Shown here piece after piece: positions 11,307 through 44,300 of a stretch of 64,000 bases of DNA; the first letter of the stretch is position 1; each line of letters opens with the position of its first letter. The notes under the pieces were generated by a model. The model was given only the letters and a program-made list of their open reading frames with translations, was not told where the DNA came from and made no database searches. The stretch is from Heliocidaris erythrogramma (Eukaryota > Echinodermata > Echinoidea > Camarodonta > Echinometridae). The position numbers and the translations under genes were made by a program. Location of the stretch: positions 25,897,501 to 25,961,500 of the forward strand of contig CM046870.1 in assembly GCA_025617745.1 (NCBI GenBank), read 5' to 3'.

Positions 11307-12803
11307 CAATTCAGGAGATTACTACTGCTGTTAAAGAGCTTGGTTCTAACAAATCGCCTGGTTTAGATGGCTTATCAACCGACTTTTTGGCCCCTCTTGA
11401 AACATGATTTTCTATCTGTTATAAAATTTGCCATTACTTTTGGAACTCTCCCACGATTTTTTTTCCAGGGCTGTTATTACTCTCATTCCAAAGAAAGGAG
11501 ACCTGTCAGACATTGCCAATTGGCGACCAGTCTCCCTTCTTAATAATGATTACAAAATATTTGCAAAAGTACTTGCTAATCGACTAAAACTTTGTGTAGA
11601 TGATTTAATTCATGAAGACCAAACATATTGCGTACCAGGTCGAATAATTTATGATAATGTAATTTTGATTCGAGATGTAATTAGTTTTGGTAATAACAAT
11701 AATTTACCTCTTGCTGTTGTTAGTCTTGATCAGACGAAGGCGTTTGATAATGTTATCCACAATTATTTTTTCAATACTATGAAAGTCATGGGCTTTGGTG
11801 ATTTATTCTTATCTTGTATCAAATTATTGTATATAAATGCTGAAAGCCTTATCAAAGTATGTGGCTCTTTGACTGCACCTTTTTCTTTTAAAAAAGGTAT
11901 TCGCCAAGGTTGCCCTCTATCGGGTCTCCTTTATTCTATAGCTATTGAACCTTTCCTCAATTGTTTAAGACGAAATCTTCAAACCTCTGGCGTTACCCTA
12001 CCGAATACAAACAAAGTTTGTTCTGTTTCAGCTTATGCTGACGATATCTCTATATTTGTCACCAATGATTCAGGGTTTAATATTATTCAAACTGTGTATA
12101 ACTTATTTAGTAGTGCTTCTAATGCCTGTCTTAATTATAATAAATCTAAAGGTTTGTGGGTCGGATCTTGGTCCAGACGAAGTGACAAATCACTAAATTT
12201 TCAATGGAACAATGAAGGGCTCGTTCTCTTGGGAGTTCACATTGGTATAAGTAACACTTTTATGAATCAAAATTGGATAAAATGTAAAGATAAATTGAGC
12301 ACAACTCTTTCGCGATGGATGTCTCTTGCGAACATACTTTCTTTTAAAGGCAAAATACTAGTTGCTAATCAGTTAGCTGCTTCCAAAGTTTTTCATTGTC
12401 TTGCAACTCTCTCTCCGCCTAAACATATTATAAATGAATTCCAAAATCTACTAGTCAATTTCGTCTGGTCCAACAAAAGACCCTTTCTTAAAAAACAAAT
12501 TCTGTATCAAGAATTTGAAAAAGGTGGACTTGGTCTGGTGTGCCTCCAAGCACGAGTTTTGTCATTTCGTTTTAGATTTCTCCAACGTTTCCTCAATCCC
12601 TGCACACACCCTGCATATGTGTTCTGTTCTTACAATTTAAAAAAATAATGGGATTTGATTTTCAGTTGTTTCTCATTAATCTTCTCCCAAACTACTTTAC
12701 TAGTTTATCATGTTTTTACTCTGAAATACTGAGTGCTTGGTTATCCTCCGGAGCTCAAATAGAAAGTACGTATTTTACACTCAACCATGTGTTAAACATT
12801 CCG
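11306..12803 (+). pseudogene. LINE ORF2, reverse transcriptase part (frameshifted)
   Basis: After a short frame with SNKSPGLDGLSTDF (11310-11405), the main frame 11428-12648 has VITLIPKKGD, NWRPVSLLN, LDQTKAFDNV (~11725-11755), GIRQGCPLSGLLYSIAIEP (~11900-11955) and the catalytic AYADD (YADD at 12033-12044). The Asp of LDQTKAFDN and the two Asp of YADD are all present. The frame shifts at an A-run near 12640, and a third frame continues to 12803, where the TTAA element interrupts. Family and role are clear. Activity is not possible in this copy. Confidence 0.85.
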
Positions 12804-15330: not shown

Positions 15331-15525
15331 AAAAAGTCTTCTTCAGTTCTTCTTCTTCTTCTTCTTCTTTGTTTCTTCGCCTTTTTTGTTTCTTTGTTTC
15401 TTTATTTCTTTATTATTTTTCTTTCTTTCTTTCTTTTCTTTCTTCTTTTCTTTTTTCTTTCTTTCATTAGTTCTTTCTTTCGTTCTTTTCTTTCTTCTTT
15501 TCTTGTTTCTTTCTTGCATTCGTTC
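15331..15525 (+). repeat. Polypyrimidine (CTT)n/(TTTC)n tract
   Basis: Almost pure T/C on the + strand, moving from CTT repeats to TTTC repeats. It follows directly on the LINE tail. The Lys/Glu-rich peptide encoded on the minus strand is a by-product of the repeat and is not a gene. Confidence 0.9.
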
Positions 15526-15672
15526 TGATTTAACCGTAGAGTTACACATAGTATGCACTGAACTTTTGTTCGGTGTTCTGTAACACTGGTACCCGGTTTT
15601 CTGCCCGGTTTGGTTAAGCGCCATCTAGTGCCGGCTCTTGATTTATTTTTAAGCTTTTTCGTTAACGTTGTT

Positions 15673-16365
15673 ACGAAGACCTGGAAGGGCCAAACTGACG
15701 ACGTAAAAAAATAAAAAATATTACGTACGTACGTAATAATACTACGTACGTACGTAATAAATACTACGTACGTACGTGATAATATTACGTACGTACGTGA
15801 TAATTACTACGTACGTACGTGATATTTATTACGTACGTACGTAATAATACTACGTACGTACGTAATAAATAATACATGAAAAAGATTGAAATCACACAGC
15901 TGCCTTATTATTTATCCGTCGATTCCCGTTGATTTGCCACAATGTTGTTAGCCTGTGGGCTCTAGCTTGTCAAGTGTGAAGAATTCTCAACATTTGTGTG
16001 ATGTGTGTGTGTGACGTGTGTTGGTGGATGTGTGAGTGCACGTGTGTGTCGCTTCATTTTCCCAGCGGCAAGTCCGGTCCCAGACAAATCAAAACAGAAT
16101 AAAGCAGTTCGACTCTGTTCGGGTAAAATCGAACAAAATGAAGTTATGAATCTTTATAACACTAAAAACTATCTGACAACTGTATAGTCTGAAAGTTTAT
16201 GAATCACACTGAAAACTATTGAAAACAAAGAAAATCACTAGACAAATTGGCCACTTTGTCATGAATTTGTAACGACAGATATCCTCATCACAATCATTTT
16301 CTTTCATATCCTAAATTTATGTCCCGTAATAAGATTTCCTCATAACTTGAATCTAATTATAGACT
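15673..16365 (+). repeat. Left terminal inverted repeat of the 5.0-kb element
   Basis: The reverse complement matches 19998-20683. After the palindrome array both arms read through TTGATTTGCCACAAT, TCCGGTCCCAGACAAATC, TCGAACAAAATGAAGTTATG and AAAATCACTAGACAAATTGG. Homology fades just inside CCTCATAACTTGAA. The microsatellite length differs between arms. Confidence 0.87.
15721..15865. repeat. Phased palindrome array, left arm (7 units)
   Basis: Seven copies of the perfect palindrome TACGTACGTACGTA (outer base variable) start at 15721, 15742, 15764, 15785, 15808, 15829 and 15850. The spacing is 21-23 bp, close to two turns of B-DNA, with AT-rich spacers. Confidence 0.92.
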
Positions 16366-16514
16366 ATCGGGGAAAATCAGGCACTTATCTGAAGGGGGAA
16401 ATGTGCACTTATTGGGGAAAAGGGGAGTCCAGTAGTAAAAAGGGCACATTTTAAAAAGCGTGGGGGCACTGTGCCCCCTGCCCCGGGTGCGCCACTTCTG
16501 ATTTTAAAAAATTG

Positions 16515-17140
16515 TTTCTCGGAACGAACTTGAATTTTACATCTTGACGCTGCATGGAGCCCCAAAGATTAATTTTTGAATTGGGCCTAAGGAGATTGTA
16601 CTGTTTTGTTTTGCAAAATACATGTAGCAGACATGAAAATATTTACATAATTAAGTGTCAGGCTGAGCCTGACATTGATGGTTTTCTTCGAAATAATGCA
16701 AGGCCTTTTAAAACACGCTTTAGGGTTCTGTGGCTTTTGACTATTCTATGCTTGGAAATTAAATAATACAGTATTTCCCTCTGAGTAAAACCAATTTCAA
16801 AGTACAAACGCACGAGTCTGTCCCTCTCGATCGCCGGGCGCAGCCATTGATCGTCATCAATACTACGTACGTACGTACTGTACGTAATGATACTATGTAC
16901 GTACGTAAATAACGTAATAATACTACGTACGTACGTACGTAATAATTACTACGTACGTACGTAATAATAATACGTACGTACGTAGTATTTATTACGTACG
17001 TACGTAATAACTTAATTGTGTAAATATTTCCATGTCTGCTACATGTATTTTGTAAGATAAAACAGTACAATCTCATTAGGCCCAATCGTTGGGGCTCCAG
17101 GGTCAATAAGTAAAAGTCAAGTTTGTTCCGAGCCCCCACT
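16515..17140. repeat. Internal inverted repeat around a central palindrome array
   Basis: Arms at ~16515-16650 and ~17010-17140 are inverted copies (TCGGAACGAACTTGA, GGAGCCCCAA, TACATGTAGCAGACATG and counterparts). Between them, after ~200 bp of other sequence, lies the palindrome array at 16863-17006. It looks like a smaller version of the same design nested within the 5.0-kb element. Confidence 0.75.
16863..17006. repeat. Central palindrome array (about 6 units)
   Basis: About six ACGTACGTACGT units start near 16863, 16893, 16923, 16948, 16970 and 16991. Two are altered (one expanded by ACGT, one followed by an extra TGTACG). Spacing is less regular than in the terminal arms. Confidence 0.85.
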
Positions 17141-17859
17141 TTTTTCAGTAAACACGTGCAAACGTATGGTAGCGCAAAAATGTGGTTATACACGCAGCCC
17201 CCCCCCCCCCCCCCCCACTCAGCCCTCCACTTTCCAAGACGTTCCGCGGCCCCTGCATTAACCCTGCGGATTTTTGGGTGCGTAATCCGTATAAAGATTT
17301 CTTTCTGCCCCCCTCCCCTAGATACGCCACTGAGCGAAGCGACCAAGCGGGGGAGGGTGTGGGAGGGGGTATCCCCCCTCCCACACCAGGGACTTTTTCG
17401 AAAATCTGTCTATAAAACTTCCATTTTAGAGCATCCCAAAATGTTTTTTAATGAATAAAAGGAATGCACGGATCTACGCCATTGGACGGAACCCCTCAAA
17501 TGAGAATGACAATGCGAGCGAACGAATTTTCTTCCATATTTTCGAATTGAAATTATGGCATTTCTTATTTCCTTACTTCTAATAATCAAAGAATGTGATG
17601 GTATTTCAAGGTACAAACATAATGAGTTTGGATAATTATTAGTTTTAAGTTAATGTATCATAATTATATGGGGTGATGATAATAGTATACAGGCCACCCC
17701 CCCCCCCCCCCGGGATCGACACCCATGGGGGGCCAGACGTGAAGGATCAAACCGCATAGCCAGGATTTCATTTTAGGGGGGGCGGTTGTAAGCACGCGAA
17801 GAGTGCGAAAATTGTGATGAGCACGCAAAGCTGCCCAGGGGCGGGCCCAGGGGGTGGAT

Positions 17860-18196
17860 GCAGGGAGGGGGAATGTTTTCCCCCTCCCGCGCAAAGCGCG
17901 AAATCTGTGACGTTTTATAGCAAATATGCGGAAAGTTATTTCGAGGTCCGGACTGCTTTTCAGTTATTTGGACGTGATACTGCACTGTAACAGGGTTGGG
18001 TGCAGGGAGGGAGAAGTTTCCCCCTTCCCGCACGAAGCGCGAAAGTTCTGACGTTTTAGCAACTTCGAGAGAAAGACAACGGCTTGTAGCAAATAAACTT
18101 TTAGGCGGAAAGTTATAGTTCGACGCCCTGACTGCTTTTCAATTACTTGAACGCAAGATTGCACTGTATGTATCAGGGGTGGATGCAGGAACTGGT

Positions 18197-18241
<45 letters not shown>

Positions 18242-18600
18242 CGCGAAGAACGAAAGCTCTATGTTTTACAGCAAATTTAAGATAAAGTAACGGCTCGTAA
18301 CACTTTTTTTTAGGCGGAAAGTTAGTTTGACGCCCTGGCCGCTTTTCAGTTATTTTGGACGTGATATACTGCACTGTAACAGGGATGGGTGAAGGGAGGG
18401 GGAGTTTCCCCCTTCCCGCGCGAAGCGCAAAAGCTCTGACGTTTTAGCAAATTTGAGAGAAAGAAAACGGCTTGTAGCATCTACATTTCACTGTATGTAA
18501 CAGTGGGTGCAGGGAGAGGAGAGTTATTTACCCCTTCCCGCGCGAAGCGCGAAAGCTTTGACGTTTTAGCAAATTTTTAGAGAAAGATAACGGCTTGTAT
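17860..18600. repeat. Degenerate tandem units with C-rich centres
   Basis: Five imperfect units share CCCGCGCGAAGCGCGAAAG, then GACGTTTTAGCAAATTTGAG and AACGGCTTGTAGC, starting near 17880, 18025, 18235, 18415 and 18535. A C run of about 40 bases lies at 18200-18240. Nothing coding is seen. Confidence 0.75.
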
Positions 18601-18793
18601 AGCGATGGGCCTTTTTCTCTCACTTCCCCCGCTTTTTCGCTGTCGCTTTTTTTAGTGGCTGAATAGGGGGGCATGGCCCCCTTGTGCCCCCTGTCTACGC
18701 CAGTGATAATGACCCTTTTCACCTCTCATAAGCGCACTTTCCTCATCTAAATGTGTACCCTTATCCCTATAATTTCCCTTTGTTTCTTACAAA

Positions 18794-19067
18794 AAGTGCC
18801 ATATCTATAGCCAGAATCAGTGCGGCTTTATGTAGCAACATGACTGTATACCTACCCATATTACTACAACTGCAATGTAAGCCAACGGAGCTGGAGGCAG
18901 AGTGGCACAATGCTCCCCCCCCCCCCCCCCAAGTGCCATATCTATAGCCAGAATCAGTGCGGCTTTATGTAGCAACATGACTGTATACCTACCCATATTA
19001 CTACAACTGCAATGTAAGCCAACGGAGCTGGAGGCAGAGTGGCACAATGCTCCCCCCCCCCCCCCCA
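18794..19067. repeat. Direct duplication, 137-bp unit
   Basis: Two almost identical 137-bp units (starting 18794 and 18931), each ending in a C run. They share AGTGCCATATCTATAGCC and GGAGCTGGAGGCAGAGTGG. The near-identity suggests a recent duplication or an assembly artefact at the C runs. Confidence 0.9.
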
Positions 19068-19997
19068 CCAGCAAAGGAATTCATATTCCAATAGCTCGAA
19101 TGTGCCCATAACTTACACAATTTAATAAGGTCAATATTTTCAGAAAATGTCCTAAGACTAGCTTGTTAGCAGGCCTATGAAATCAAGCAGATACCATAAT
19201 AATGTTGATATCTCCGGAAGAAAAACCACAGGGTTAATGTAAGAAATGAAAGATCATTCGACATTTCACCCAAATTAATTTGTTGTCATTTTCACTATCG
19301 GTGTAAATAATGCATAATATATAACAACATGAACATTAGAAAAATTCTTAAGATTTTTGCTGGCTCGCACGTGCATCATTAGACAATTGCACACAACTGC
19401 TAATTGTGGAAGCTGAAGCTGAAGCAGAACCACCATAAGAATGTGCTTCATAATAATATATGCACCCCTTGCAGGTGCCCTCAGGTGTCTTTTTTGTTGG
19501 TACCCCCCCCCCCCCCCCCCCCCCTCACACACACACACTTTGAAAGACGCTCCGCCGCCCCTGGCGCAGACTTTAAAAATTAGGTGGAGAAAGCAGATTT
19601 TGTTTTAAAAAGGGATAGACGAAAGTCGGGTCATGTGAATTTTTTCAAAGACATGAATAAATATGAACAAAAATTAAAATCACTAGACAATTTAGTCACG
19701 AGTTTTGACGTCATTCCCTCACGACCTCTCGGTGATCTCTATACACCTTAAAAAATCTTATTTAAAGATCAGTGCTGACGAAAAAAGCAATTATCTGTTT
19801 CCTACAGGCCTATTAATAAAACATTTTACGTTTTGTCCAAGAATAGGCCTATGATTTCGTCAGAAATTGAATGTAATTATACTGTATTTTATTTTAATAG
19901 CATGAAGATATTTTTTGTAAAAAATAAACAATGACTAGGAATATGTAATATTTTGAAAGCGGCCTCACTGACTTTTTTCCCGGATACATGTAAAAAC

Positions 19998-20683
19998 ATA
20001 ACTATAATCGTCTGATCATAGGTTCAAGTTATGAGGAAATCATATTCTGGGAAAATCATTGACGGCTTGTGATGAGGATATGGGACGTTACAAATTCATG
20101 ACAAAGTGGCCAATTTGTCTAGTGATTTTCTTTGTTTTCATTAGCTTTCAGTGTCATAAAGATTCATAACTTCATTTTGTTCAATTTTACTCGAACAGAG
20201 TCGAACTGCTTTATTCTGTTTTGATTTGTCTGGGACCGGACTTGCCGCTGGGAAAATGAAGCGGCACACACACACACACACGTCACACACCACACAAATG
20301 TTGATGTTTCTTCACACTAGACAAGCAAAAGCCCACAGGCTCACAATATTGTGGCAAATCAACGGGAATCGACGGATAATAATAAGGCAGCTGTGTAATT
20401 TCAACCTTTTTCACGTGTGATTTATTACGTACGTACGTAATAAATATCACGTACGTACGTAATAAATATCACGTACGTACGTAATAATTATCACGTACGT
20501 ACGTAGTAATTATCACGTACGTACGTAATATTATCACGTACGTACGTAGTAATTATCACGTACGTACGTAATATTATCACGTACGTACGTAGTAATTATC
20601 ACGTACGTACGTAGTATTATTACGTACGTACGTAATATTTTTTATTTTTTTACGTCGTCAGTTTGGCCCTTCCAGGTCTTCGT
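19998..20683 (-). repeat. Right terminal inverted repeat of the 5.0-kb element
   Basis: Inverse of 15673-16365, ending GGCCCTTCCAGGTCTTCGT. It carries ten palindrome units where the left arm has seven, so the arrays have changed copy number independently. Confidence 0.87.
20425..20635. repeat. Phased palindrome array, right arm (10 units)
   Basis: Ten ACGTACGTACGT units start at 20425, 20447, 20469, 20491, 20513, 20534, 20556, 20577, 20599 and 20620. Every step is 21 or 22 bp. Spacers are TAATAATTAT-like. Confidence 0.93.
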
Positions 20684-20754
20684 ACGTTGTCATCCGAAGA
20701 CCGAAATTGCGACCGAAGATTAGTTCCTAATCCTACGAAATTGGGCTACTTTTA

Positions 20755-21044: not shown

Positions 21045-22945
21045 CATCCCAAATGCACGCAAATTGTTTTAACTTTGAAGCCTTTTAAAACTATCGTATG
21101 ACATTTTAACTAAATAATGACTTATATCAGATGAAAGCTGAATAGTTGCTCTTTACTCTCATATAGGTCACATGCCGAAACTTTTTGTCTGGGTCTTACT
21201 GTTTTAAATTGAATCCAAAGCTGTAACCGGCATACGGGAGGTCTTATCCGCACAATATAGTGGAAATGTACAGAATTCGTTTTTAACTTTAAAGCCTTTT
21301 AAAACTATCGTATGACATTTTAACTAATTAATGACCTATATGAGATAAAAGCTGAATAGTTGCTCTTTACTCTCATATAGGTCACATGCCGAAACTTTTT
21401 GTCTGGGTCTTACTGTTTTAAATTGAAATCAGGGCTCAAAACGTCATACCGGAGGTCTTATCCGCATAATATAGCGGAAATGTACAGAATTCGTTTTTAA
21501 TTTTCAGGGCTTTTAAAACTATCGTATGACATTTTAACTAAATAATGCCCTATATGAGATGGAAGCTGAATAGTTGCTCTTTACTCTCATATAGGTCACA
21601 TGCCGAAACTTTTTGTCTGGGTCTTACTGTTTTAAATTGAAAATCAGGGCTCAAAACGTCATACCGGAGGTCTTATCCGCACAATATAGCGGAAATGTAC
21701 AGAATTCGTTTTTAACTTTCAGGGCTTTTAAAACTATCGTATGACATTTTAACTAAATAATGACCTATATGAGATGGAAGCTAAATAGTTGCTCTTTACT
21801 CTCATATAGGTCACATGCCGAAACTTTTTGTCTGGGTCTTACTGTTTTAAATTGAAATCAGGGCTCAAAACGTCATACCGGAGGTCTTATCCGCACAATA
21901 TAGCGGAAATGTACAGAATTCGTTTTTAACTTTCAGGGCTTTTAAAACTATCGTATGACATTTTAACTAAATAATGACCTATATGAGATAAAAGCTGAAT
22001 AGTTGCTCTTTACTCTCATATAGGTCACATGCCGAAACTTTTTGTCTGGGTCTTACTGTTTTAAATTGAATCCAAGGCTGTAACCGGCATACGGGAGGCC
22101 TCATCCGCACAGTACACACGGAAATGGACGAAATGCGTTATTATATTTTAATGCTTTTTAAAACTATCGTATGACATTTTAACTAAATAATGACTTATAT
22201 GAGATGAAAGCTGAATAGTTGCTCTTTACTCTCATATAGGTCACATGCCGAAACTTTTTGTCTGGGTCTTACTGTTTTAAATTGAATCCAAAGCTGTAAC
22301 CGGCATACGGGAGGTCTTATCCGCACAATATAGTGGAAATGTACAGAATTCGTTTTTAATTTTAAAGCCTTTTAAAACTATCGTATGACATTTTAACTAA
22401 ATAATGACCTATATGAGATAAAAGCTGAATAGTTGCTCTTTACTCTCATATAGGTCACATGCCGAAACTTTTTGTCTGGGTCTTACTGTTTTAAATTGAA
22501 ATCAGGGCTCAAAACGTCATACCGGAGGTCTTATCCGCACAGTACACACGGAAATGGACGGAATGCGTTTTTAACTTTCAGGGCTTTTAAAACTATCGTA
22601 TGACATTTTAACTAAATAATGACCTATATGAGATGAAAGCTGAATAGTTGCTCTTTACTCTCATATAGGTCACATGCCGAAGCTTTTTGTCTGGGTCTTA
22701 CTGTTTTAAAGTGAAATCAGGGCTCAAAACGTCATACCGGAGGTCTTATCCGCACAATATAGCGGAAATGTACAGAATTCGTTTTTAATTTAAAGCCTTT
22801 TAAAACTATCGTATGACATTTTAACTAAATAATGATCTATATGAGATGAAAGCTGAATAGTTGCTCTTTACTCTCATATAGGTCACATGCCGAAACTTTT
22901 TGTCTGGGCTTAACTGTTTTAAAATGAAATCAGGGCTGAAACCTG
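21045..22945 (+). repeat. 214-bp satellite, left array (about 9 units)
   Basis: Units recur with the landmark AAAACTATCGTATGAC at 21087, 21301, 21515, 21730, 21944, 22160, 22374, 22589 and 22802 (steps 213-216). Other fixed words are CTCATATAGGTCACATGCCG and AACTTTTTGTCTGGGTC. There are two main variants between AAATTGAA and CCGCAC: one with TGTAACCGGCATACGGGAGG and one with CAAAACGTCATACCGGAGG. It is in opposite orientation to the array at 27075-38015. Confidence 0.95.
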
Positions 22946-27074: not shown

Positions 27075-30000
27075 TTTACTTTCGATTCAACACTGTGCGG
27101 AAAACAGCGAATATGCCGGTTTCCATGTGCACTGTGCGGATAAGACCTCCGGTATGCCGGTTACTGCCCTGAATTCAATTTAAAACAGTAAGGCCCAGAC
27201 AAAAAGTTTCGGCATGTGACATATATGAGAGTAAAGAGCAACTATTCAGCTTTAACCTCATATGAATCATTCTTGAGTTAAAATGTCATACGATAGTTTT
27301 AAAAGGCTTTAAAATTAAAAACGAATTTCGTCCATTTCCGCTATATTGTGCGGATAAGACCTCCGGTATGCCGGTTACAGCCTTGGATTCAATTTAAAAC
27401 AGTAAGACCCAGACAAAAAGTTTCGGCATGTGACCTATATGAGAGTAAAGAGCAACTATTCAGCTTTTATCTCATAGAAGTCATTATTTAGTTAAAATGT
27501 CATACGATAGTTTTAAAAGCCCTGAAAGTTAAAAACGCATTCCGTCCATTTCCGTGTGTACTGTGCGGATAAGACCACCGGTATGCCGGTTACAGCCTTG
27601 GATTCAATTTAAAACAGTAAGACCCAGACAAAAAGTTTCGGCATGTGACCTACATGAGAGTAAAGAACAACTATTCAGCTTTCATCTCATATAAGTCATT
27701 ATTTAGTTAAAATGTCATACGATAGTTTTAAAAGGCTTTAAATTTAAAAACGAATTCTGTACATTTCCGCTCTATTGTGCGGATAAGACCTCCGGTATGA
27801 CGTTTCGAGCCCTAATTTCAATTTAAAACAGTAAGACCCAGACAAAAAGTTTCGGCATGTGACCTATATGAGAGTAAAGAGCAACTATTCAGCTTTGATC
27901 TCATGTAGGTCATTATTTAGTTAAAATGTCATACGATAGCTTTAAAAGCCCTGAAAGTTAAAAACGAATTCTGTACATTTCCGCTATATTGTGCGGATAA
28001 GACCTCCCGTATGCCAGTTACAGCCTTGGATTCAATTTAAAACAGAAGACCCAGACAAAAAGTTTCGGCACGTGACCTATATGAGAGTAAAGAACAACTA
28101 TTCAGCTTTCATCTCATATAGGTCATTATTTAGTTAAAATGTCATACGATAGTTTTAAAAGCCCTGAAAGTTAAAAACGAATTCTGTACATTTCCGCTAT
28201 ATTACGCGGATAAGACCTCCGGTATGACGTTTCGAGCCCTAATTTCAATTTAAAACAAAGACCCAGACAAAAAGTTTCGGCATGTGACCTATATGAGAGT
28301 AAAGAGCAACTATTTAGCTTCTATGTCATATAGGTCATTATTTAGTTAAAATGGCATACGATAGTTTTAAAAGGCTTTAAAGTTAAAAACGAATTCTGTA
28401 GATTTCCGCTATATTGTGCGGATAAGACCTCCGGTATGACGTTTTGAGCCCTGATTTCAATTTAAAACAGTAAGACCCAGACAAAAAGTTTCGGCATGTG
28501 ACCTATATGAGAGTAAAGAACAACTATTCAGCTTTCATCTCATATAGGTCATTATTTAGTTAAAATGTCATACGATAGTTTTAAAAGGCTTTAAAATTAA
28601 AAACGAATTTCGTCCATTTCCGCTATATTGTGCGGATAAGACCACCGGTATGCCGGTTACAGCCTTGGATTCAATTTAAAACAGTAAGACCCAGACAAAA
28701 AGTTTCGGCATGTGACCTACATGAGAGTAAAGAACAACTATTCAGCTTTTATCTCATAGAAGTCATTATTTAGTTAAAATGTCATACGATAGTTTTAAAA
28801 GCCCTGAAAGTTAAAAACGCATTCCGTCCATTTCCGTGTGTACTGTGCGGATAAGACCACCGGTATGCCGGTTACAGCCTTGGATTCAATTTAAAACAGT
28901 AAGACCCAGACAAAAAGTTTCGGCATGTGACCTACATGAGAGTAAAGAACAACTATTCAGCTTTCATCTCATATAAGTCATTATTTAGTTAAAATGTCAT
29001 ACGATAGTTTTAAAAGCCCTGAAAGTTAAAAACGAATTCTGTACATTTCCGCTATATTGTGCGGATAAGACCTCCGGTATGACGTTTCGAGCCCTAATTT
29101 CAATTTAAAACAGTAAGACCCAGACAAAAAGTTTCGGCATGTGACCTATATGAGAGTAAAGAGCAACTATTCAGCTTTGATCTCATGTAGGTCATTATTT
29201 AGTTAAAATGTCATACGATAGTTTTAAAAGCCCTGAAAGTTAAAAACGAATTCCGTCCATTTCCGTGTGTACTGTGCGGATAAGACCACCGGTATGCCGG
29301 TTACAGCCTTGGATTCAATTTAAAACAGTAAGACCCAGACAAAAAGTTTCGGCACGTGACCTATATGAGAGTAAAGAACAACTATTCAGCTTTTATCTCA
29401 TATAGGTCATTATTTAGTTAAAATGTCATAAGATAGTTTTAAAAGGCTTTAAAGTTAAAAACGAATTTCGTCCATTTCCGCTATATTGTGCGGATAAGAC
29501 CACCGGTATGCCGGTTACAGCCTTGGATTCAATTTAAAACAGTAAGACCCAGACAAAAAGTTTCGGCACGTGACCTATATGAGAGTAAAGAACAACTATT
29601 CAGCTTTCATCTCATAGAAGTCATTATTTAGTTAAAATGTCATACGATAGTTTTAAAAGCCCTGAAAGTTAAAAACGCATTCCGTCCATTTCCGTGTGTA
29701 CTGTGCGGATAAGACCACCGGTATGCCGGTTACAGCCTTGGATTCAATTTAAAACAGTAAGACCCAGACAAAAAGTTTCGGCATGTGACCTATATGAGAG
29801 TAAAGAGCAACTATTCAGCTTTGATCTCATGTAGGTCATTATTTAGTTAAAATGTCATACGATAGTTTTAAAAGCCCTGAAAGTTAAAAACGCATTCCGT
29901 CCATTTCCGTGTGTACTGTGCGGATAAGACCGCCCGTATGCCGGTTACAGCCTTAGATTCAATTTAAAACAGTAAGACCCAGACAAAAAGTTTCGGCATG

Positions 30001-33000
30001 TGACCTATATGAGAGTAAAGAACAACTATTCAGCTTTTATCTCATAGAAGTCATTATTTAGTTAAAATGTCATACGATAGTTTTAAAAGCCCTGAAAGTT
30101 AAAAACGCATTCCGTCCATTTCCGTGTGTACTGTGCGGATAAGACCACCGGTATGCCGGTTACAGCCTTGGATTCAATTTAAAACAGTAAGACCCAGACA
30201 AAAAGTTTCGGCATGTGACCTACATGAGAGTAAAGAACAACTATTCAGCTTTCATCTCATATAAGTCATTATTTAGTTAAAATGTCATACGATAGTTTTA
30301 AAAGGCTTTAAAGTTAAAAACGAATTCTGTACATTTCCGCTATATTGTGCGGATAAGACCTCCGGTATGACGTTTTGAGCCCTGATTTCAATTTAAAACA
30401 GTAAGACCCAGACAAAAAGTTTCGGCACGTGACCTATATGAGAGTAAAGAACAACTATTCAGCTTTGATCTCATATAGGTCATTATTTAGTTAAAATGTC
30501 ATACGATAGTTTTAAAAGGCTTTAAAATTAAAAACGAATTTCGTCCATTTCCGCTATATTGTGCGGATAAGACCACCGGTATGCCGGTTACAGCCTTGGA
30601 TTCAATTTAAAACAGTAAGACCCAGACAAAAAGTTTCGGCATGTGACCTATATGAGAGTAAAGAGCAACTATTCAGATTTGATCTCATGTAGGTCATTAT
30701 TTAGTTAAAATGTCATACGATAGCTTTTAAATCCTTGAAAATTAAAAACGAATTCTGTACATTACCGCTATATTATGCGGATAAGACCTCCGGTATGACG
30801 TTTTAAGCCCTAATTTCACTTTAAAACAGTAACACCCAGACAAAAAGTTTCGGCATGTGACCTATATGAGAGTAAAGAGCAACTATTCAGCTTTGATCTC
30901 ATATAGGTCATTATTTAGTTAAAATGTCATACGATAGTTTTAAAAGCCCCGAAAGTTAAAAACGAATTCTGTACATTTCCGCTATATTATGTGGATAAAC
31001 CTCCGGTATGAGGATTCGAGCCCTAATTTCAATTTAAAACAGTAAGACCCAGACAAAAAGTTTCGGCATGTGACCTATATGAGAGTAAAGAGCAACTATT
31101 CAGCTTCAATATCATATAAGTCATTATCTAGTTAAAATGTCATACGATAGCTTTAAAAGCCCTGAAAGTTAAAAACGCATTTCGTCCATTTCCGCGTGTA
31201 CTCTGCGGATAAGACCTCCCGTATGCCAGTTACAGCCTTGGATTAAACTTAAAACAGTAAGACCCAGACAAAAAGTTTCGGCATGTGACCTATATGAGAT
31301 TACAGATCAACTATTCAGCTTTGATCTCATATAGGTCATTACTTAGTTAAAATGTCATACGATAGTTTTAAAAGGCTTTAAATTTAAAAACGAATTCTGT
31401 ACATTTCCGCTCTATTGTGCGGATAAGACCTCCGGTATGACGTTTCGAGCCCTAATTTCAATTTAAAACAGTAAGACCCAGACAACAAGTTTCGGCACGT
31501 GACCTATATGAGAGTAAAGAACAACTATTCAGCTTTTATCTCATAGAAGTCATTATTTAGTTAAAATGTCATACGATAGTTTTAAAAGCCCTGAAAGTTA
31601 AAAACGCATTCCGTCCATTTCCGTGTGTACTGTGCGGATAAGACCACCGGTATGCCGGTTACAGCCTTGGATTCAATTTAAAACAGTAAGACCCAGACAA
31701 AAAGTTTCGGCATGTGACCTACATGAGAGTAAAGAACAACTATTCAGCTTTCATCTCATATAAGTCATTATTTAGTTAAAATGTCATACGATAGTTTTAA
31801 AAGCCCTGAAAGTTAAAAACGAATTCTGTACATTTCCGCTATATTGTGCGGATAAGACCTCCGGTATGACGTTTCGAGCCCTAATTTCAATTTAAAACAG
31901 TAAGACCCAGACAAAAAGTTTCGGCATGTGACCTATATGAGAGTAAAGAGCAACTATTCAGCTTTGATCTCATGTAGGTCATTATTTAGTTAAAATGTCA
32001 TACGATAGTTTTAAAAGCCCTGAAAGTTAAAAACGAATTCTGTACATTTCCGCTATATTGTGCGGATAAGACCTCCCGTATGCCAGTTACAGCCTTGGAT
32101 TCAATTTAAAACAGTAAGACCCAGACAAAAAGTTTCGGCATGTGACCTATATGAGAGTAAAGAGCAACTATTCAGCTTTGATCTCATGTAGGTCATTATT
32201 TAGTTAAAATGTCATACGATAGTTTTAAAAGCCCTGAAAGTTAAAAACGCATTCCGTCCATTTCCGTGTGTACTGTGCGGATAAGACCACCGGTATGCCG
32301 GTTACAGCCTTGGATTCAATTTAAAACAGTAAGACCCAGACAAAAAGTTTCGGCATGTGACCTATATGAGAGTAAAGAGCAACTATTCAGCTTTGATCTC
32401 ATGTAGGTCATTATTTAGTTAAAATGTCATACGATAGTTTTAAAAGCCCTGAAAGTTAAAAACGCATTCCGTCCATTTCCGTGTGTACTGTGCGGATAAG
32501 ACCACCGGTATGCCGGTTACAGCCTTAGATTCAATTTAAAACAGTAAGACCCAGACAAAAAGTTTCGGCATGTGACCTATATGAGAGTAAAGAGCAACTA
32601 TTCAGCTTTTATCTCATAGAAGTCATTATTTAGTTAAAATGTCATACGATAGTTTTAAAAGCCCTGAAAGTTAAAAACGCATTCCGTCCATTTCCGTGTG
32701 TACTGTGCGGATAAGACCACCGGTATGCCGGTTACAGCCTTGGATTCAATTTAAAACAGTAAGACCCAGACAAAAAGTTTCGGCATGTGACCTACATGAG
32801 AGTAAAGAACAACTATTCAGCTTTCATCTCATATAAGTCATTATTTAGTTAAAATGTCATACGATAGTTTTAAAAGGCTTTAAAGTTAAAAACGAATTCT
32901 GTACATTTCCGCTATATTGTGCGGATAAGACCTCCGGTATGACGTTTTGAGCCCTGATTTCAATTTAAAACAGTAAGACCCAGACAAAAAGTTTCGGCAG

Positions 33001-36000
33001 GTGACCTATATGAGAGTAAAGAGCAACTATTCAGCTTTGATCTCATATAGGTCATTATTTAGTTAAAATGTCATACGATAGTTTTAAAAGGCTTTAAAAT
33101 TAAAAACGAATTTCGTCCATTTCCGCTATATTGTGCGGATAAGACCACCGGTATGCCGGTTACAGCCTTGGATTCAATTTAAAACAGTAAGACCCAGACA
33201 AAAAGTTTCGGCATGTGACCTATATGAGAGTAAAGAGCAACTATTCAGATTTGATCTCATGTAGGTCATTATTTAGTTAAAATGTCATACGATAGCTTTT
33301 AAATCCTTGAAAATTAAAAACGAATTCTGTACATTACCGCTATATTATGCGGATAAGACCTCCGGTATGACGTTTTAAGCCCTAATTTCACTTTAAAACA
33401 GTAACACCCAGACAAAAAGTTTCGGCATGTGACCTATATGAGAGTAAAGAGCAACTATTCAGCTTTGATCTCATGTAGGTCATTATTTAGTTAAAATGTC
33501 ATACGATAGTTTTAAAAGCCCTGAAAGTTAAAAACGAATTCTGTACATTTCCGCTATATTATGCGGATAAACCTCCGGTATGAGGATTCGAGCCCTAATT
33601 TCAATTTAAAACAGTAAGACCCAGACAAAAAGTTTCGGCATGTGACCTATATGAGAGTAAAGAGCAACTATTCAGCTTCAATATCATATAAGTCATTATC
33701 TAGTTAAAATGTCATACGATAGCTTTAAAAGCCCTGAAAGTTAAAAACGCATTTCGTCCATTTCCGCGTGTACTCTGCGGATAAGACCTCCCGTATGCCA
33801 GTTACAGCCTTGGATTAAACTTAAAACAGTAAGACCCAGACAAAAAGTTTCGGCATGTGACCTATATGAGATTACAGATCAACTATTCAGCTTTGATCTC
33901 ATATAGGTCATTACTTAGTTAAAATCTCATACGATAGTTTTAAAAGGCTTTAAAGTTAAAAACGAATTCTGTACATTTCCGCTCTATTGTGCGGATAAGA
34001 CCTCCGGTATGACGTTTTGAGCCCTAATTTCAATTTAAAACAGTAAGACCCAGACAAAAAGTTTCGGCATGTGACCTATATGAGAGTAAAGAGCAACTAT
34101 TCAGCTTTTATCTCATAGAAGTCATTATTTAGTTAAAATGTCATACGATAGTTTTAAAAGCCCTGAAAGTTAAAAACGCATTCCGTCCATTTCCGTGTGT
34201 ACTGTGCGGATAAGACCACCGGTATGCCGGTTACAGCCTTGGATTCAATTTAAAACAGTAAGACCCAGACAAAAAGTTTCGGCATGTGACCTACATGAGA
34301 GTAAAGAACAACTATTCAGCTTTCATCTCATATAAGTCATTATTTAGTTAAAATGTCATACGATAGTTTTAAAAGCCCTGAAAGTTAAAAACGAATTCTG
34401 TACATTTCCGCTATATTGTGCGGATAAGACCTCCGGTATGACGTTTCGAGCCCTAATTTCAATTTAAAACAGTAAGACCCAGACAAAAAGTTTCGGCATG
34501 TGACCTATATGAGAGTAAAGAGCAACTATTCAGCTTTGATCTCATGTAGGTCATTATTTAGTTAAAATGTCATACGATAGTTTTAAAAGCCCTGAAAGTT
34601 AAAAACGAATTCTGTACATTTCCGCTATATTGTGCGGATAAGACCTCCCGTATGCCAGTTACAGCCTTGGATTCAATTTAAAACAGGAAGACCCAGACAA
34701 AAAGTTTCGGCATGTGACCTATATGAGAGTAAAGAGCAACTATTCAGCTTTCATCTCATATAGGTCATTATTTAGTTAAAATGTCATACGATAGTTTTAA
34801 AAGGCTTTAAAATTAAAAACGAATTTCGTCCATTTCCGCTATATTGTGCGGATAAGACCACCGGTATGCCGGTTACAGCCTTGGATTCAATTTAAAACAG
34901 TAAGACCCAGACAAAAAGTTTCGGCACGTGACCTATATGAGAGTAAAGAACAACTATTCAGCTTTTATCTCATATAGGTCATTATTTAGTTAAAATGTCA
35001 TACGATAGTTTTAAAAGCCCTGAAAGTTAAAAACGCATTCCGTCCATTTCCGTGTGTACTGTGCGGATAAGACCACCGGTATGCCGGTTACAGCCTTGGA
35101 TTCAATTTAAAACAGTAAGACCCAGACAAAAAGTTTCGGCACGTGACCTATATGAGAGTAAAGAACAACTATTCAGCTTTTATCTCATAGAAGTCATTAT
35201 TTAGTTAAAATGTCATACGATAGTTTTAAAAGCCCTGAAAGTTAAAAACGCATTCCGTCCATTTCCGTGTGTACTGTGCGGATAAGACCACCGGTATGCC
35301 GGTTACAGCCTTGGATTCAATTTAAAACAGTAAGACCCAGACAAAAAGTTTCGGCATGTGACCTACATGAGAGTAAAGAACAGCTATTCAGGTTTCATCT
35401 CATATAAGTCATTATTTAGTTAAAATGTCATACGATAGGTTTAAAAGCCCTTAAAGTTAAAAACGAATTCTGTACATTTCCGCTATATTGGGCGGATAAG
35501 ACCTCCGGTATGACGTTTCGAGCCCTAATTTCAATTTAAAACAGTAAGACCCAGACAAAAAGTTTCGGCATGTGACCTATATGAGAGTAAAGAGCAACTA
35601 TTCAGCTTTGATCTCATGTAGGTCATTATTTAGTTAAAATGTCATACGATAGTTTTAAAAGCCCTGAAAGTTAAAAACGAATTCTGTACATTTCCGCTAT
35701 ATTGTGCGGATAAGACCTCCCGTATGCCAGTTACAGCCTTGGATTCAATTTAAAACAGTAAGACCCAGACAAAAAGTTTCGGCATGTGACCTATATGAGA
35801 GTAAAGAGCAACTATTCAGCTTTAATCTCATAGAAGTCATTATTTAGTTAAAATGTCATACGATAGTTTTAAAAGCCCTGAAAGTTAAAAACGCATTCCG
35901 TCCATTTCCGTGTGTACTGTGCGGATAAGACCACCGGTATGCCGGTTACAGCCTTGGATTCAATTTAAAACAGTAAGACCCAGACAAAAAGTTTCGGCAT

Positions 36001-38015
36001 GTGACCTACATGAGAGTAAAGAACAACTATTCAGCTTTCATCTCATAGAAGTCATTATTTAGTTAAAATGTCATACGATAGTTTTAAAAGCCCTGAAAGT
36101 TAAAAACGAATTCTGTACATTTCCGCTATATTGTGCGGATAAGACCTCCGGTATGACGTTTCGAGCCCTAATTTCAATTTAAAACAGTAAGACCCAGACA
36201 AAAAGTTTCGGCATGTGACCTATATGAGAGTAAAGAGCAACTATTCAGCTTTGATCTCATGTAGGTCATTATTTAGTTAAAATGTCATACGATAGCTTTT
36301 AAATCCTTGAAAGTTAAAAACGAATTCTGTACATTTCCGCTATATTATGCGGATAAGACCTCCGGTATGACGTTTTAAGCCCTAATTTCACTTTAAAACA
36401 GTAAGACCCAGACAAAAAGTTTCGGCATGTGACCTATATGAGATTACAGATCAACTATTCAGCTTTGATCTCATGTAGGTCATTATTTAGTTAAAATGTC
36501 ATACGATAGTTTTAAAAGCCCTGAAAGTTAAAAACGAATTCTGTACATTTCCGCTATATTATGCGGATAAACCTCCGGTATGAGGTTTCGAGCCCTAATT
36601 TCAATTTAAAACAGTAAGACCCAGACAAAAAGTTTCGGCATGTGACCTATATGAGAGTAAAGAGCAACTATTCAGCTTCAATATCATATAAGTCATTATC
36701 TAGTTAAAATGTCATACGATAGCTTTAAAAGCCTTGAAAGTTAAAAACGCATTTCGTCCATTTCCGCGTGTACTCTGCGGATAAGACCTCCCGTATGCCA
36801 GTTACAGCCTTGGATTAAACTTAAAACAGTAAGACCCAGACAAAAAGTTTCGGCATGTGACCTATATGAGATTACAGATCAACTATTCAGCTTTGATCTC
36901 ATATAGGTCATTACTTAGTTAAAATGTCATACGATAGTTTTAAAAGGCTTTAAAGTTAAAAACGAATTCTGTACATTTCCGCTCTATTGTGCGGATAAGA
37001 CCTCCGGTATGACGTTTCGAGCCCTAATTTCAATTTAAAACAGTAAGACCCAGACAAAAAGTTTCGGCATGTGACCTATATGAGAGTAAAGAGCAACTAT
37101 TCAGCTTTGATCTCATGTAGGTCATTTTTTAGTTAAAATGTCATACGATAGTTTAAAAAGCCCTGAAAGTTAAAAACGAATTCTGTACATTTCCGCTATA
37201 TTGTGCGGATAAGACCTCCCGTATGCCAGTTACAGCCTTGGATTCAATTTAAAACAGTAAGACCCAGACAAAAAGTTTCGGCATGTGACCTATATGAGAG
37301 TAAAGAACAACTATTCAGCTTTGATCTCATATAGGTCATTATTTAGTTAAAATGTCATACGATAGTTTTAAAAGGCTTTAAAATTAAAAACGAATTTCGT
37401 CCATTTCCGCTATATTGTGCGGATAAGACCGCCCGTATGCCGGTTACAGCCTTGGATTCAATTTAAAACAGTAAGACCCAGACAAAAAGTTTCGGCATGT
37501 GACCTATATGAGAGTAAAGAACAACTATTCAGCTTTTATCTCATAGAAGTCATTATTTAGTTAAAATGTCATACGATAGTTTTAAAAGCCCTGAAAGTTA
37601 AAAACGCATTCCGTCCATTTCCGTGTGTACTGTGCGGATAAGACCACCGGTATGCCGGTTACAGCCTTGGATTCAATTTAAAACAGTAAGACCCAGACAA
37701 AAAGTTTCGGCATGTAACCTACATGAGAGTAAAGAGCAACTATTCAGCTTTCATCTCATATAGGTCATTACTTAGTTAAAATGTCATACGATAGTTTTAA
37801 AAGGCTTTAAATTTAAAAACGAATTCTGTACATTTCCGCTCTATTGTGCGGATAAGACCTCCGGTATGACGTTTCGAGCCCTAATTTCAATTTAAAACAG
37901 TAAGACCCAGACAAAAAGTTTCGGCATGTGACCTATATGAGAGTAAAGAGCAACTATTCAGCTTTCATCTCATATAAGTCATTGTTTAATTAAAATGTTA
38001 TACGATAGTTTTAAA
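27075..38015 (-). repeat. 214-bp satellite, right array (about 51 units, inverted)
   Basis: About 10.9 kb of the same satellite in reverse orientation. Landmarks per unit are TTCGGCATGTGACCTATATG, GAGTAAAGA(G/A)CAACTATTC and GTCATACGATAGTTTTAAAA. Two families alternate in blocks: GGTATGCCGGTTACAGCC with a GTGTGTACTGTGCGG segment, and GGTATGACGTTTCGAGCC with a GCTATATTGTGCGG segment. Rare variants recur at set distances (30721, 33293, 36293), showing higher-order repeats of ~12 and ~14 units. No coding potential. Confidence 0.96.
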
Positions 38016-38119
38016 AGCATTCCAATCTAGTCTTTCATTCCCATTGACGTTATCGCCAACCGAGATCCGCAAAATTTTCTTTTTCTTTTTTGATTTGAGA
38101 TTTTGACGACACTATAAAC

Positions 38120-41300: not shown

Positions 41301-44300
41301 TTGTAAATATTCATAGGCGCATGCGCAAGTGCCTATTTTCGTTTCTGCTTCAACAACATGGCGAATGGGACTGATTTCGAAAATTAAATTGAGAGTAAAA
41401 AGTGACATTTATCGATTCTACACATTTTTTAGGTAAAGGTACATCTAGACCGAAAAATCAGTCTATTTCGTTCGTGGCTATGCTCCGCTGAGACTACGTC
41501 TGGCTTCACGGAATCCCTCTCCTACATAGACCGAAGTCTGCCCTATGTAGCGTAGTCCTAGTCAGCTAGTAGTAGTAGTACTAGTCAGAGTTCTACGTAC
41601 AAAAGTTACGATAACCACGTCCACGATAGTCGATAACCCCAATTTTATGAATTTGTATATGGTACCATCATTCCCGCTAATCATTCCCATCAAACTGGTA
41701 CTAGTGGTAGTGGTAGACATCCATGAAAAAAAAAAATTCTACAACATAATTTCAACTTTACCACATTACACGATGGAAATATTCACTGAAGATCACGGAA
41801 ATCTTTATCCATCTCGCGACATCGTCTTTCCTCTAAGTCGCCATTAATTATGTGTTTACGAAGGTTTACAGACCCCGTATACACTTGCTCTGATTGGCCG
41901 ACGGACAATTTCCGTCGCTCGATCAATATGAATAAGTCAATATGCAAATAAGCAACTATGAATATAATTAGGCCTATATCAGTATATGCAAATAAAATGG
42001 AAATCGATAGCGAAATTGGGTCAAAATAGTACGCTACATACGTTAGTGAATATTTATGAGTATTTAATACTATGAATATTAATGAGCAGTGGAAACCTCA
42101 AATTTGTACATTGAATGTGATTGGCTAACGGATTCACTTGCCGAGGATTAGTTCAGTAACGCGTCGACGAGCTGTAAACTGTGTATTTCCTTGAAAATTT
42201 CACCCATATCTAGGATATTTCAAAGAGCTGTGCGTTGTGGCGTGCGCCTGTAATCCAGCTACCAGTGGAAGTTATAAACTGATTCAGCGGACCCAGGTTC
42301 GAGACTGAGTCACGTCTTTCGGATGGTGACGTTAAAGGTCGGTCCCAGACGTAAATAATCATATCTGTGTGTGTGTGTGTGTGTAATTGGGTTTTTACAG
42401 ACGTGTATCAATCAGATATGATTATTTACGTCTGGGACCGACCTTTAACGTCACCATCCGAAAGACGTGACTCAGTCTCGAACCTGGGTCCGCTGAATCA
42501 GTTTATAACTTCCACTGGTAGCTGGATTACAGGCGCACGCCACAACGCCCAGTATCTGATTGATACACGTCTGTAAAACCCAATTACACACACACACGCT
42601 GGAGGTTGTGGCGTGCGCCTGTAATCCAGCTACCAGTGGAAGTTATAAACTGATTCAGCGGACCCAAGTTCGAGACTGAGTCACGTCTTTCGGATGGTGA
42701 CGTTAAAGGTCGGTCCCAGACGTAAATAATAAAAAAAGAAGATTTCTAGACCGAGGATGGTGAGAGTTAGAATGAAATCGATCAAAGAATAAAGTTATGA
42801 TTGTTTGAAAAATGACATAATTAAATCTTCCTTTGTTGACAAAAATTTTAGTGGCCAAGTTTAGTCTAAAACATCGGCGGAATGAAAACATGCGATCACA
42901 AAAAAAAATGGCTGGATTTCTTTGGTTTTGGACATGATTTTTATTCGAAATATCAGAAGTTCTTTGAAGTGTCCATTTAAGGTTTTAAGGTAAGTGTGAG
43001 ATTTTTAAGAGCTGAATTTGAAAGGAATAATTTGAAATATTTATCTTATTTTTCCCCCTATACATTTAGTACAGTGTACATGCTGTAGAAAATGAGTAGT
43101 ATTTTTTTAATTCGCCGAGCTTAGTGAAGGAGCACCCAAAGCCATGTAAGCAGGAAGTGAGTTTATTTACATTTATTGCATGACTTGATTTATTAACTTG
43201 TTCCAAGCATTCAAAATTCCACCCCTCCGAATGGACAAATAATAAATATAATAATTATTTCTATTCACCACAGGTATGGATGGCAGAACAGAGAACAGAT
43301 GCAGAGAAGAAGAAACAAGAAGCACTAAGAGCTGAATATGAGAGAGAACAAGATACTTACAATAACAGGTATATATTTCTCATACATGTACATGTGGTAA
43401 TGACAATAATGATCATAGTAATAACAAAACAATGATTGTGATGGTAATAGTAATAATAATAATAATAATATTAATAATAATAATAATTACCCTTTATTGA
43501 GTTGAACATTACATTAATGTCGAACATTTAATGATATAACTTAACTTTAAATTTCTTCTTTTTTTTGCTGTGCTAATTTGGGTAGGTAATGTCACAAAAT
43601 GCTTGACCAGATTTGCCTAACCTTAGCAACTGGGCCATCAGGAAAATGCCTAGATGTAGTCCCACAAACTGATTTCCATGTTGTTTTTTTCCCTGGTCTG
43701 CCTCCATCAATCTACAGGCAGCTGATGGGAGGCTTCAGAGTTCGAATCATTCAATATTGGTTTCGGGTACAGGTGAGTCATAATTATTAATGATAAAAGT
43801 TATGGAAGAAACATAACCAGTCATTGTAATCCCACAAATTGATTTCCATGTTCCTGTTGTTCCTTTTCTTTCTATGCCATTCTACAGACAGCTAATGGGA
43901 GATGTTAGGGTGAAGCATGGCCTGAACTTCATGTACGAGCCGCCCAAGGGCATGAAGCAGGAGGAGAAGGAGGATGGTGAGCAGGAGTATAAGTTTGAAT
44001 GGCAGCGTGGGGCTCCTAGAGAAGGATATGCCAAAGACATGGAAGTCACGGATCAACCCTTTGGCATCGCCGTCCGCAACGTCAAGTGCATTAGGTGCCA
44101 TAAGTGGGGCCATGTCAACACCGATAGAGAGGTAGGAATATCAGTTTCTTTTATTTCTTTGATAGTTATTTGACCTACACTAAAGTACCAAGTGCTTGAA
44201 GGTATACAGCTTTAAATCATCCATGTACATGTATCATAGGAATTGCACATTGGCTACCGTGGGTAAAATTTAATAACTTACAAGGGCTGGGGGGGGGACT

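Follow-up and report, generated by a model that had tools for sequence, protein, structure and literature searches.

Do regular arrays of short palindromes in the arms of a transposon mark sites that a transposase reads, or are they repeats multiplied by duplication alone? The question arises at a locus of the sea urchin Heliocidaris erythrogramma, within a stretch of 64,000 nucleotides (GCA_025617745.1, contig CM046870.1, positions 25,897,501 to 25,961,500 of the forward strand) that we refer to as the window and number from its first letter. A 5,013-bp element with ends TACGAAG..CTTCGTA occupies positions 15672-20684. It has defined ends, 6-bp target duplications, long arms and many genomic copies, it has spread recently, and its palindromic sites vary in number at a step of 21 or 22 bp. 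We think it probable that this is a non-autonomous, foldback-type cut-and-paste transposon mobilized by an IS3EU/GingerRoot-type transposase, with arrays that consist of tandemly duplicated, predicted binding sites. An initial annotation of the window had drawn attention to the arrays; as a whole, its observation is confirmed and its interpretation is partly supported.

Ends, arms and palindrome arrays

The hexamer CGTTGT lies directly left of TACGAAG (15666-15671) and directly right of CTTCGTA (20685-20690). The initial annotation had read ACGTTGT on both sides as a sign of real transposition; the target duplication is real, but its length is 6 rather than 7 bp, because a symmetric parse assigns the seventh base (A), on the right side, to the element itself as its final base. 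Between these flanks, the left arm (15672-16355, plus strand) aligns as a terminal inverted repeat (TIR) with the right arm (20019-20684, minus strand). The two are 100% identical over their outermost 84 bp, and the part of the arms inside the arrays is identical at 360 of 401 positions (90%), with 85 gap columns. On both sides the first palindrome stands 50 bp from the element end; the 50 bp that precede it on the left read TACGAAGACC.., and the right arm finishes in ..GGTCTTCGTA.

Searching the window for the 14-bp palindrome TACGTACGTACGTA with up to two mismatches returned 25 matches where 0.04 were expected, a count reached by none of 100 shuffles, and all 25 fall within 15722-17006 or 20426-20634. 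Seven sites form the left array (15722-15864, plus strand; steps of 21, 22, 21, 22, 22 and 21 bp), and ten, three units more, form the right array (20426-20634, minus strand; steps of 22, 22, 22, 22, 21, 22, 21, 22 and 21 bp). The arrays fill these intervals only, not the entire arms. Both counts had been annotated correctly, whereas the perfect 14-mer ascribed to every site is found in four of the seven left and two of the ten right sites, the other 11 differing at one outer base. What stays constant is the inner 12-bp core, ACGTACGTACGT, which is invariant in 17 of 17 arm sites while the spacers vary, with at least six types among them. The regular spacing likewise held up, over a narrower range than the 21-23 bp first reported: arm steps are 21 or 22 bp and never 23. 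A third array (16864-17006, plus strand) is located, as annotated, inside an internal inverted repeat, between its left half (16518-16656, plus strand) and its right half (17010-17132, minus strand), which it adjoins; its steps (60, 4, 22, 21 and 22 bp) are less regular.

The perfect dyad symmetry of the core and the AT-rich spacers would also suit binding by a host factor, such as a dimeric transcription factor or chromatin protein, for which the palindromes would serve as promoter, enhancer or insulator sites. We regard this as very improbable, as the element holds no recognised gene to regulate and both arrays start 50 bp from the element ends, in the position expected of transposase sites. 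The arrays are probably what we predict them to be, binding sites for the transposase.

Genomic copies and the short palindromic unit

The genome search covered 1,064,227,859 bases in 26 contigs. The exact 14-bp palindrome occurs 4,027 times, compared with 316 for the reversed motif, and the 20-bp end TACGAAGACCTGGAAGGGCC, with at most one mismatch, 1878 times forward and 1878 times in reverse as printed (the equality is unexplained), compared with 0 for the reversed control. When exact ends with a preceding C are set aside, 82 remain (31 and 51). This filter drops the usual flanks of a carrier repeat, described below, but also free copies preceded by C, and at least one of the 82 (C1:20346760) still belongs to a short unit, with its partner ~140 bp away. 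Neighboring plus/minus pairs of these ends bracket 2.8-7.7 kb in 12 cases, the window included, and 10-17 kb in four. A search with the inner arm gave 180 candidates; the 40 that were scored, among them the window, all match at 93-100% identity.

Thirty of the 40 scored matches were cut out as loci, L024 being the window itself and L031 yielding no end. From 34 end hits in these loci, 29 outer arrays (window included) were kept, and the spacing statistics rest on them; we dropped the second readings of doubled ends in L039 and L042, a carrier unit (L038), a degenerate nested end (L044) and the overlap of L025 and L029. The 29 arrays hold 4-9 exact sites each, and 152 of their 163 steps are 21 or 22 bp; with mismatched sites allowed, 167 of 173 steps have these lengths and 188 of 202 cores are exact. 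For 24 third arrays the corresponding figures are 61 of 96 steps and 83 of 134 cores, and all of these counts describe related copies rather than independent events, with some inexact third-array hits possibly due to chance. The annotated picture of a real, long-armed transposon is thus borne out: the element has a target duplication of its own, many genomic copies share its ends, and those copies keep its step rather than ignoring it, the last two being the points on which the initial annotation had expected its reading to fail if it was wrong. As a separate observation, L025 and L029 (C18:21853439-21855052) are tandem copies, in which the start of one closely follows the palindrome-array sequence of the next.

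A copy on C2 is complete, with TACGAAG..CTTCGTA ends and CTTTAC on both flanks. Among eight further copies for which the second end was fetched, an exact 6-bp duplication was present in five, each matching over 6 bp and no further, a duplication with one mismatch in two, and no match in one. Across the 10 copies with both flanks, seven duplications are exact over 6 bp, two have one mismatch and one is missing, and the duplications read are all different hexamers. The TACGAAG terminus was also seen at the other copies' ends that were read.

Thirteen of the 29 copies share a seven-site register, and divergence was scored in 12 of them, L042 being omitted for an insertion. Differences from the majority number 2 in 2,400 letters over the first 200 bp, 43 in 5,287 over the next 450 bp, 40 in 2,171 between 650 and 850 bp, and 122 in 1,622 between 850 and 1000 bp. 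The first of these figures indicates that the family moved recently, while the inner-arm differences would be older differences between subfamilies. Because same-register copies were chosen for exact cores, the divergence figure for the array is biased downward; the outermost 50 bp, less touched by this selection, differ at 1 of 600 letters.

A short form of the element is embedded, in large numbers, in a different transposon family. A sample of the first exact palindromes listed on contig 1 (21 loci) gave 27 units with the two ends of the window's family, 21 of them 134-137 bp long and typically with two sites 22 bp apart. The short unit (~136 bp) corresponds to the long element reduced to its two ends, which are joined directly, and one such unit folds back over its entire length. 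These 27 units and 10 more, on contig C1 (L001-L023 and L055-L066), are flanked by a ~810-bp repeat, CACTCATAGG..GCTGATGTG. This carrier has duplications of its own, exact over 8 or 9 bp in 11 of 16, and the short unit inside it showed no 6-bp duplication among the sampled contig-1 units. The exact A-side carrier junction occurs 829 + 809 times; the majority of genomic ends are therefore probably carrier-borne. The flanks of the 37 units are A and B in 34, A on both sides in two, which probably represent one event because their outer flanks are identical, and B on both sides in one. We infer that the carrier took up an end unit, which then multiplied along with it, and that the palindrome now and then causes the carrier halves to rearrange.

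Twelve regions with seemingly unpaired or distant exact ends were considered as the source of a coding copy and rejected, as all are carrier-flanked; the short unit is present in 10 of them. Of the other two, L055 (C1:10610100-10612600) contains a 2.3-kb version of the unit between A and B flanks, its ends far apart, with frames that recur in several other loci, and L064 (C1:27446550-27449150) is a lone end with a B-side flank, no exact palindrome core and no second end within 2.6 kb.

Superfamily and mobilizing partner

Complete IS3EU families are described as always having TA..TA termini and usually 6-bp duplications, and the related GingerRoot as having 6-bp duplications and mostly TA..TA ends, in the passages of PMC10045372 on these groups; fungal members end TAYGG..CCRTA with TIRs longer than 30 bp, in the part of PMC12730594 that treats them. 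Here, the ends are TA..TA in both the window and the C2 copy, reading TACGA..TCGTA, and the 6-bp duplication is exact in 7 of 10 copies. On the strength of termini and duplication length, we would place the element with IS3EU/GingerRoot. Unlike those families as described in the passages cited, where arms of this kind go unmentioned, it has ~680-bp arms with palindrome arrays, and its transposase was not found by a Pfam scan of 11 of the 12 open reading frames (ORFs) of at least 80 amino acids (aa) that overlap the element, the ORF at 15402-15803 having been left out.

Another superfamily with 6-bp duplications, such as Polinton/Maverick or Dada, would account for the hexamers flanking copies of the window's family, and we give it an outside chance. 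Polintons carry long terminal repeats, which we counted in favor of that assignment, but their ends are AG..TC rather than TA..TA, and the scan of 11 of the 12 ORFs revealed no polymerase or integrase domain. Members of the P superfamily make 8-bp duplications; the 6-bp duplications here depart from the Galileo/P pattern, and the missing THAP match in the same 11 of 12 ORFs says little because the element is non-autonomous. The duplications given for Polintons in the relevant passage of PMC10045372 are 6 bp, as here. Dada is portrayed in the portion of PMC3706591 concerned with its targets as inserting into multicopy small RNA genes, whereas the duplication hexamers of this family are all different.

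Merlin was considered as the driver on account of an IS1595-type transposase frame (DDE_Tnp_IS1595) in the C2 copy (L052/L054). We rejected it: the frame lies within an insert that has 28-bp inverted ends of its own and host-element sequence on either side, and we take this insert as a nested Merlin-like element to which the frame belongs. The Merlin duplication is 8 bp according to the passage on that group in PMC10045372, and those of the host element are 6 bp. An IS3EU/GingerRoot-type partner is the assignment that we retain as probable.

Several results, from the coding searches to the ends and arrays themselves, weigh against this assignment or against a function for the arrays. The Pfam scan of the 11 ORFs gave one weak hit below the cut-off and no transposase, so the element looks non-autonomous. 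The search for an autonomous relative that the initial annotation had proposed found none with an IS3 or an rva_4 profile. With the IS3 profile NF033516, 73 matches were scored of 2,682 genomic candidates, none over the cut-off. The rva_4 integrase-core profile gave 116 genomic matches, none of them closer than 69.9 kb to the 82 ends or closer than 161 kb to the 40 arm matches. One of the eight newly paired copies is without a duplication. When 26 copies are compared regardless of register, 19 of 1,300 letters differ in the outermost 50 bp, against 59 of 4,175 and 68 of 6,112 in the inner arm; variation at the ends is at least as high as further in, so they show no unusual conservation in general. 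The same-register copies, in turn, have had too little time to diverge for their similarity to demonstrate constraint on the sites, and regular spacing can arise from duplication alone, without selection.

Twelve NF033516 loci considered as an IS3 partner were rejected, since their frames look Gypsy-type by eye. The choice of rva_4 as a marker of IS3EU was a guess; several groups of its matches have identical scores and open frames, and these are perhaps recently active transposons. Three rva_4 groups, each represented by one locus, showed neither palindrome arrays nor TA..TA ends with a 6-bp duplication, in stretches of 3.4-4.4 kb that may not hold whole elements, and an IS3-like HTH_21 domain was present in one of the three loci inspected. 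A 3.5-kb stretch within the 7.7-kb bracketed element on C14 contained no ORF longer than 86 aa.

In the window, the element interior without a recognised transposase (17146-20018) includes GC-rich repeated blocks around 17851-18600 and an exact 137-bp tandem duplication (18794-19066), each copy of which ends in a run of C, a possible assembly effect. Near the right flank of the element, a 214-bp satellite occupies 21067-22941 and 27133-38018 (~9 and ~51 copies), apparently in opposite orientation. Farther along, matches to metazoan signal recognition particle (SRP) RNA on both strands of nearly the same stretch (42227-42553; 90 and 82 bits) suggest an inverted pair or an SRP-derived repeat. 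To the left of the element, a reverse transcriptase frame (RVT_1) of an element resembling long interspersed nuclear elements (LINEs) lies at 11425-12645.

Spacing, array function and known systems

The initial annotation held that all sites of an array lie on one face of the DNA, as cooperative binding by a dimeric protein would predict. The shared face is true for neighbors only: at 10.5 bp per turn, the drift from first to last site is 103 degrees in the left array and 206 degrees in the right, with resultant lengths of 0.77 and 0.46. At 10.75 bp the resultant lengths are 0.98 and 0.93, and the best-fitting helical period over the 29 arrays is 10.75-10.8 bp, so whole arrays would share one face only on a slightly unwound helix. 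In the range of 15-60 bp, about 9% of periods fall within 0.5 bp of a whole number of 10.5-bp turns; the mean step is inside this margin on the left (21.5 bp) and outside it on the right (21.7 bp). As a description of the spacing, the phasing holds; as proof of function it is weak, and so is the period taken alone.

The same spacing could belong to passive repeats, in which slippage, unequal exchange and arm-to-arm conversion multiply a 21-22-bp (or 43-bp) unit that has no role in transposition. The right array matches itself at 95% over a 43-bp shift (22 + 21) versus 91% at 22 bp and is better described by a 43-bp unit; the step, at least on the right, therefore seems inherited by duplication. 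The left array has no 43-bp preference (87% at 43 bp versus 88% at 21 bp). A passive origin would also accommodate the difference of three units between left and right, the range of exact sites across the 29 arrays, the 4-bp slips of the TACG repeat that occur, and the persistence of the short unit in carriers that have their own ends. What makes it somewhat unlikely in our view is that the core, which holds CpG, never varies over 17 units in the face of all the spacer types, a modest functional argument in which the chance of five changes all missing the core is ~0.02 (a rough value that assumes uniform change), and that the third arrays of the same elements have fewer intact cores than the outer arrays.

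In the reading that we prefer, with the arrays as binding sites, the element would be mobilized by an integrase-like transposase of IS3EU/GingerRoot type, as its termini and duplication length suggest. The predicted sites for that transposase or a cofactor would be the palindrome nearest each end, at a distance of 50 bp, together with the tandem copies of it, and extra sites may raise occupancy and help to pair the element ends. Array length would change through duplication of units, on the right apparently as 43-bp pairs, and through exchange between arms; for the arrays of Galileo, copy-number change by these two routes is described in the pertinent section of PMC3573991. A broader proposal, possible and still tentative, is that this is the first foldback-type member of IS3EU/GingerRoot, that its transposase would read perfect 12-14-bp palindromes at two-turn steps, and that its end unit, fused into a 136-bp palindrome, may now be the center of an unrelated transposon family, spreading with it and occasionally rearranging the carrier halves. 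The short palindrome points to a way in which one transposon can disperse the end of another in large numbers.

The element has the structure of a foldback transposon, namely long inverted arms containing tandem repeats. Sea urchin TU elements, going by their general description, resemble it in that their long inverted repeats are divided into tandem repeats on the outside and unique sequence on the inside, and differ from it in a 15-bp repeat unit and an 8-bp duplication. Sea urchin foldbacks are among those cited in PMC4079207. The portions of that paper on Tetris/DAIBAM, foldbacks of Drosophila virilis, describe TIRs built from outer flanking, tandem-repeat and inner domains, a variable non-coding middle, a short relative sharing the TIRs and an autonomous partner that was not found, all as seen here, whereas the repeat unit of 220 bp, the duplications of 8-10 bp and the suggested link to Mutator are different. 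Tetris and Galileo are both presented in PMC3688188, in its treatment of foldback-type elements, as having tandem repeats in long arms, those of Galileo containing transposase sites. The likeness to Galileo in this respect (passages in PMC3688188 and PMC3573991) includes a first transposase site ~70 bp from the end (PMC3688188), compared with 50 bp for the first palindrome here. Galileo, a Drosophila member of the P superfamily, differs in its 7-bp bounding sequences, an F-group repeat of ~210 bp (sections of PMC3573991) and its P-type transposase.

The initial annotation had called the layout unfamiliar; for the arms, it is known from Tetris and Galileo. The joining of a 21/22-bp palindromic unit to IS3EU-like ends was not met in the open-licence full-text literature searched (Repbase lying outside this scope), and a literature search on the palindrome and the end sequence returned no related paper by title. 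Whether the tandem repeats of the arms are functional or passive is said, in the discussion of Foldback and Phantom in PMC3688188, to be untested for those elements. In the family described here, a short perfect palindrome, a fixed step and young copies with 4-10 sites per arm make both dose and spacing directly testable.

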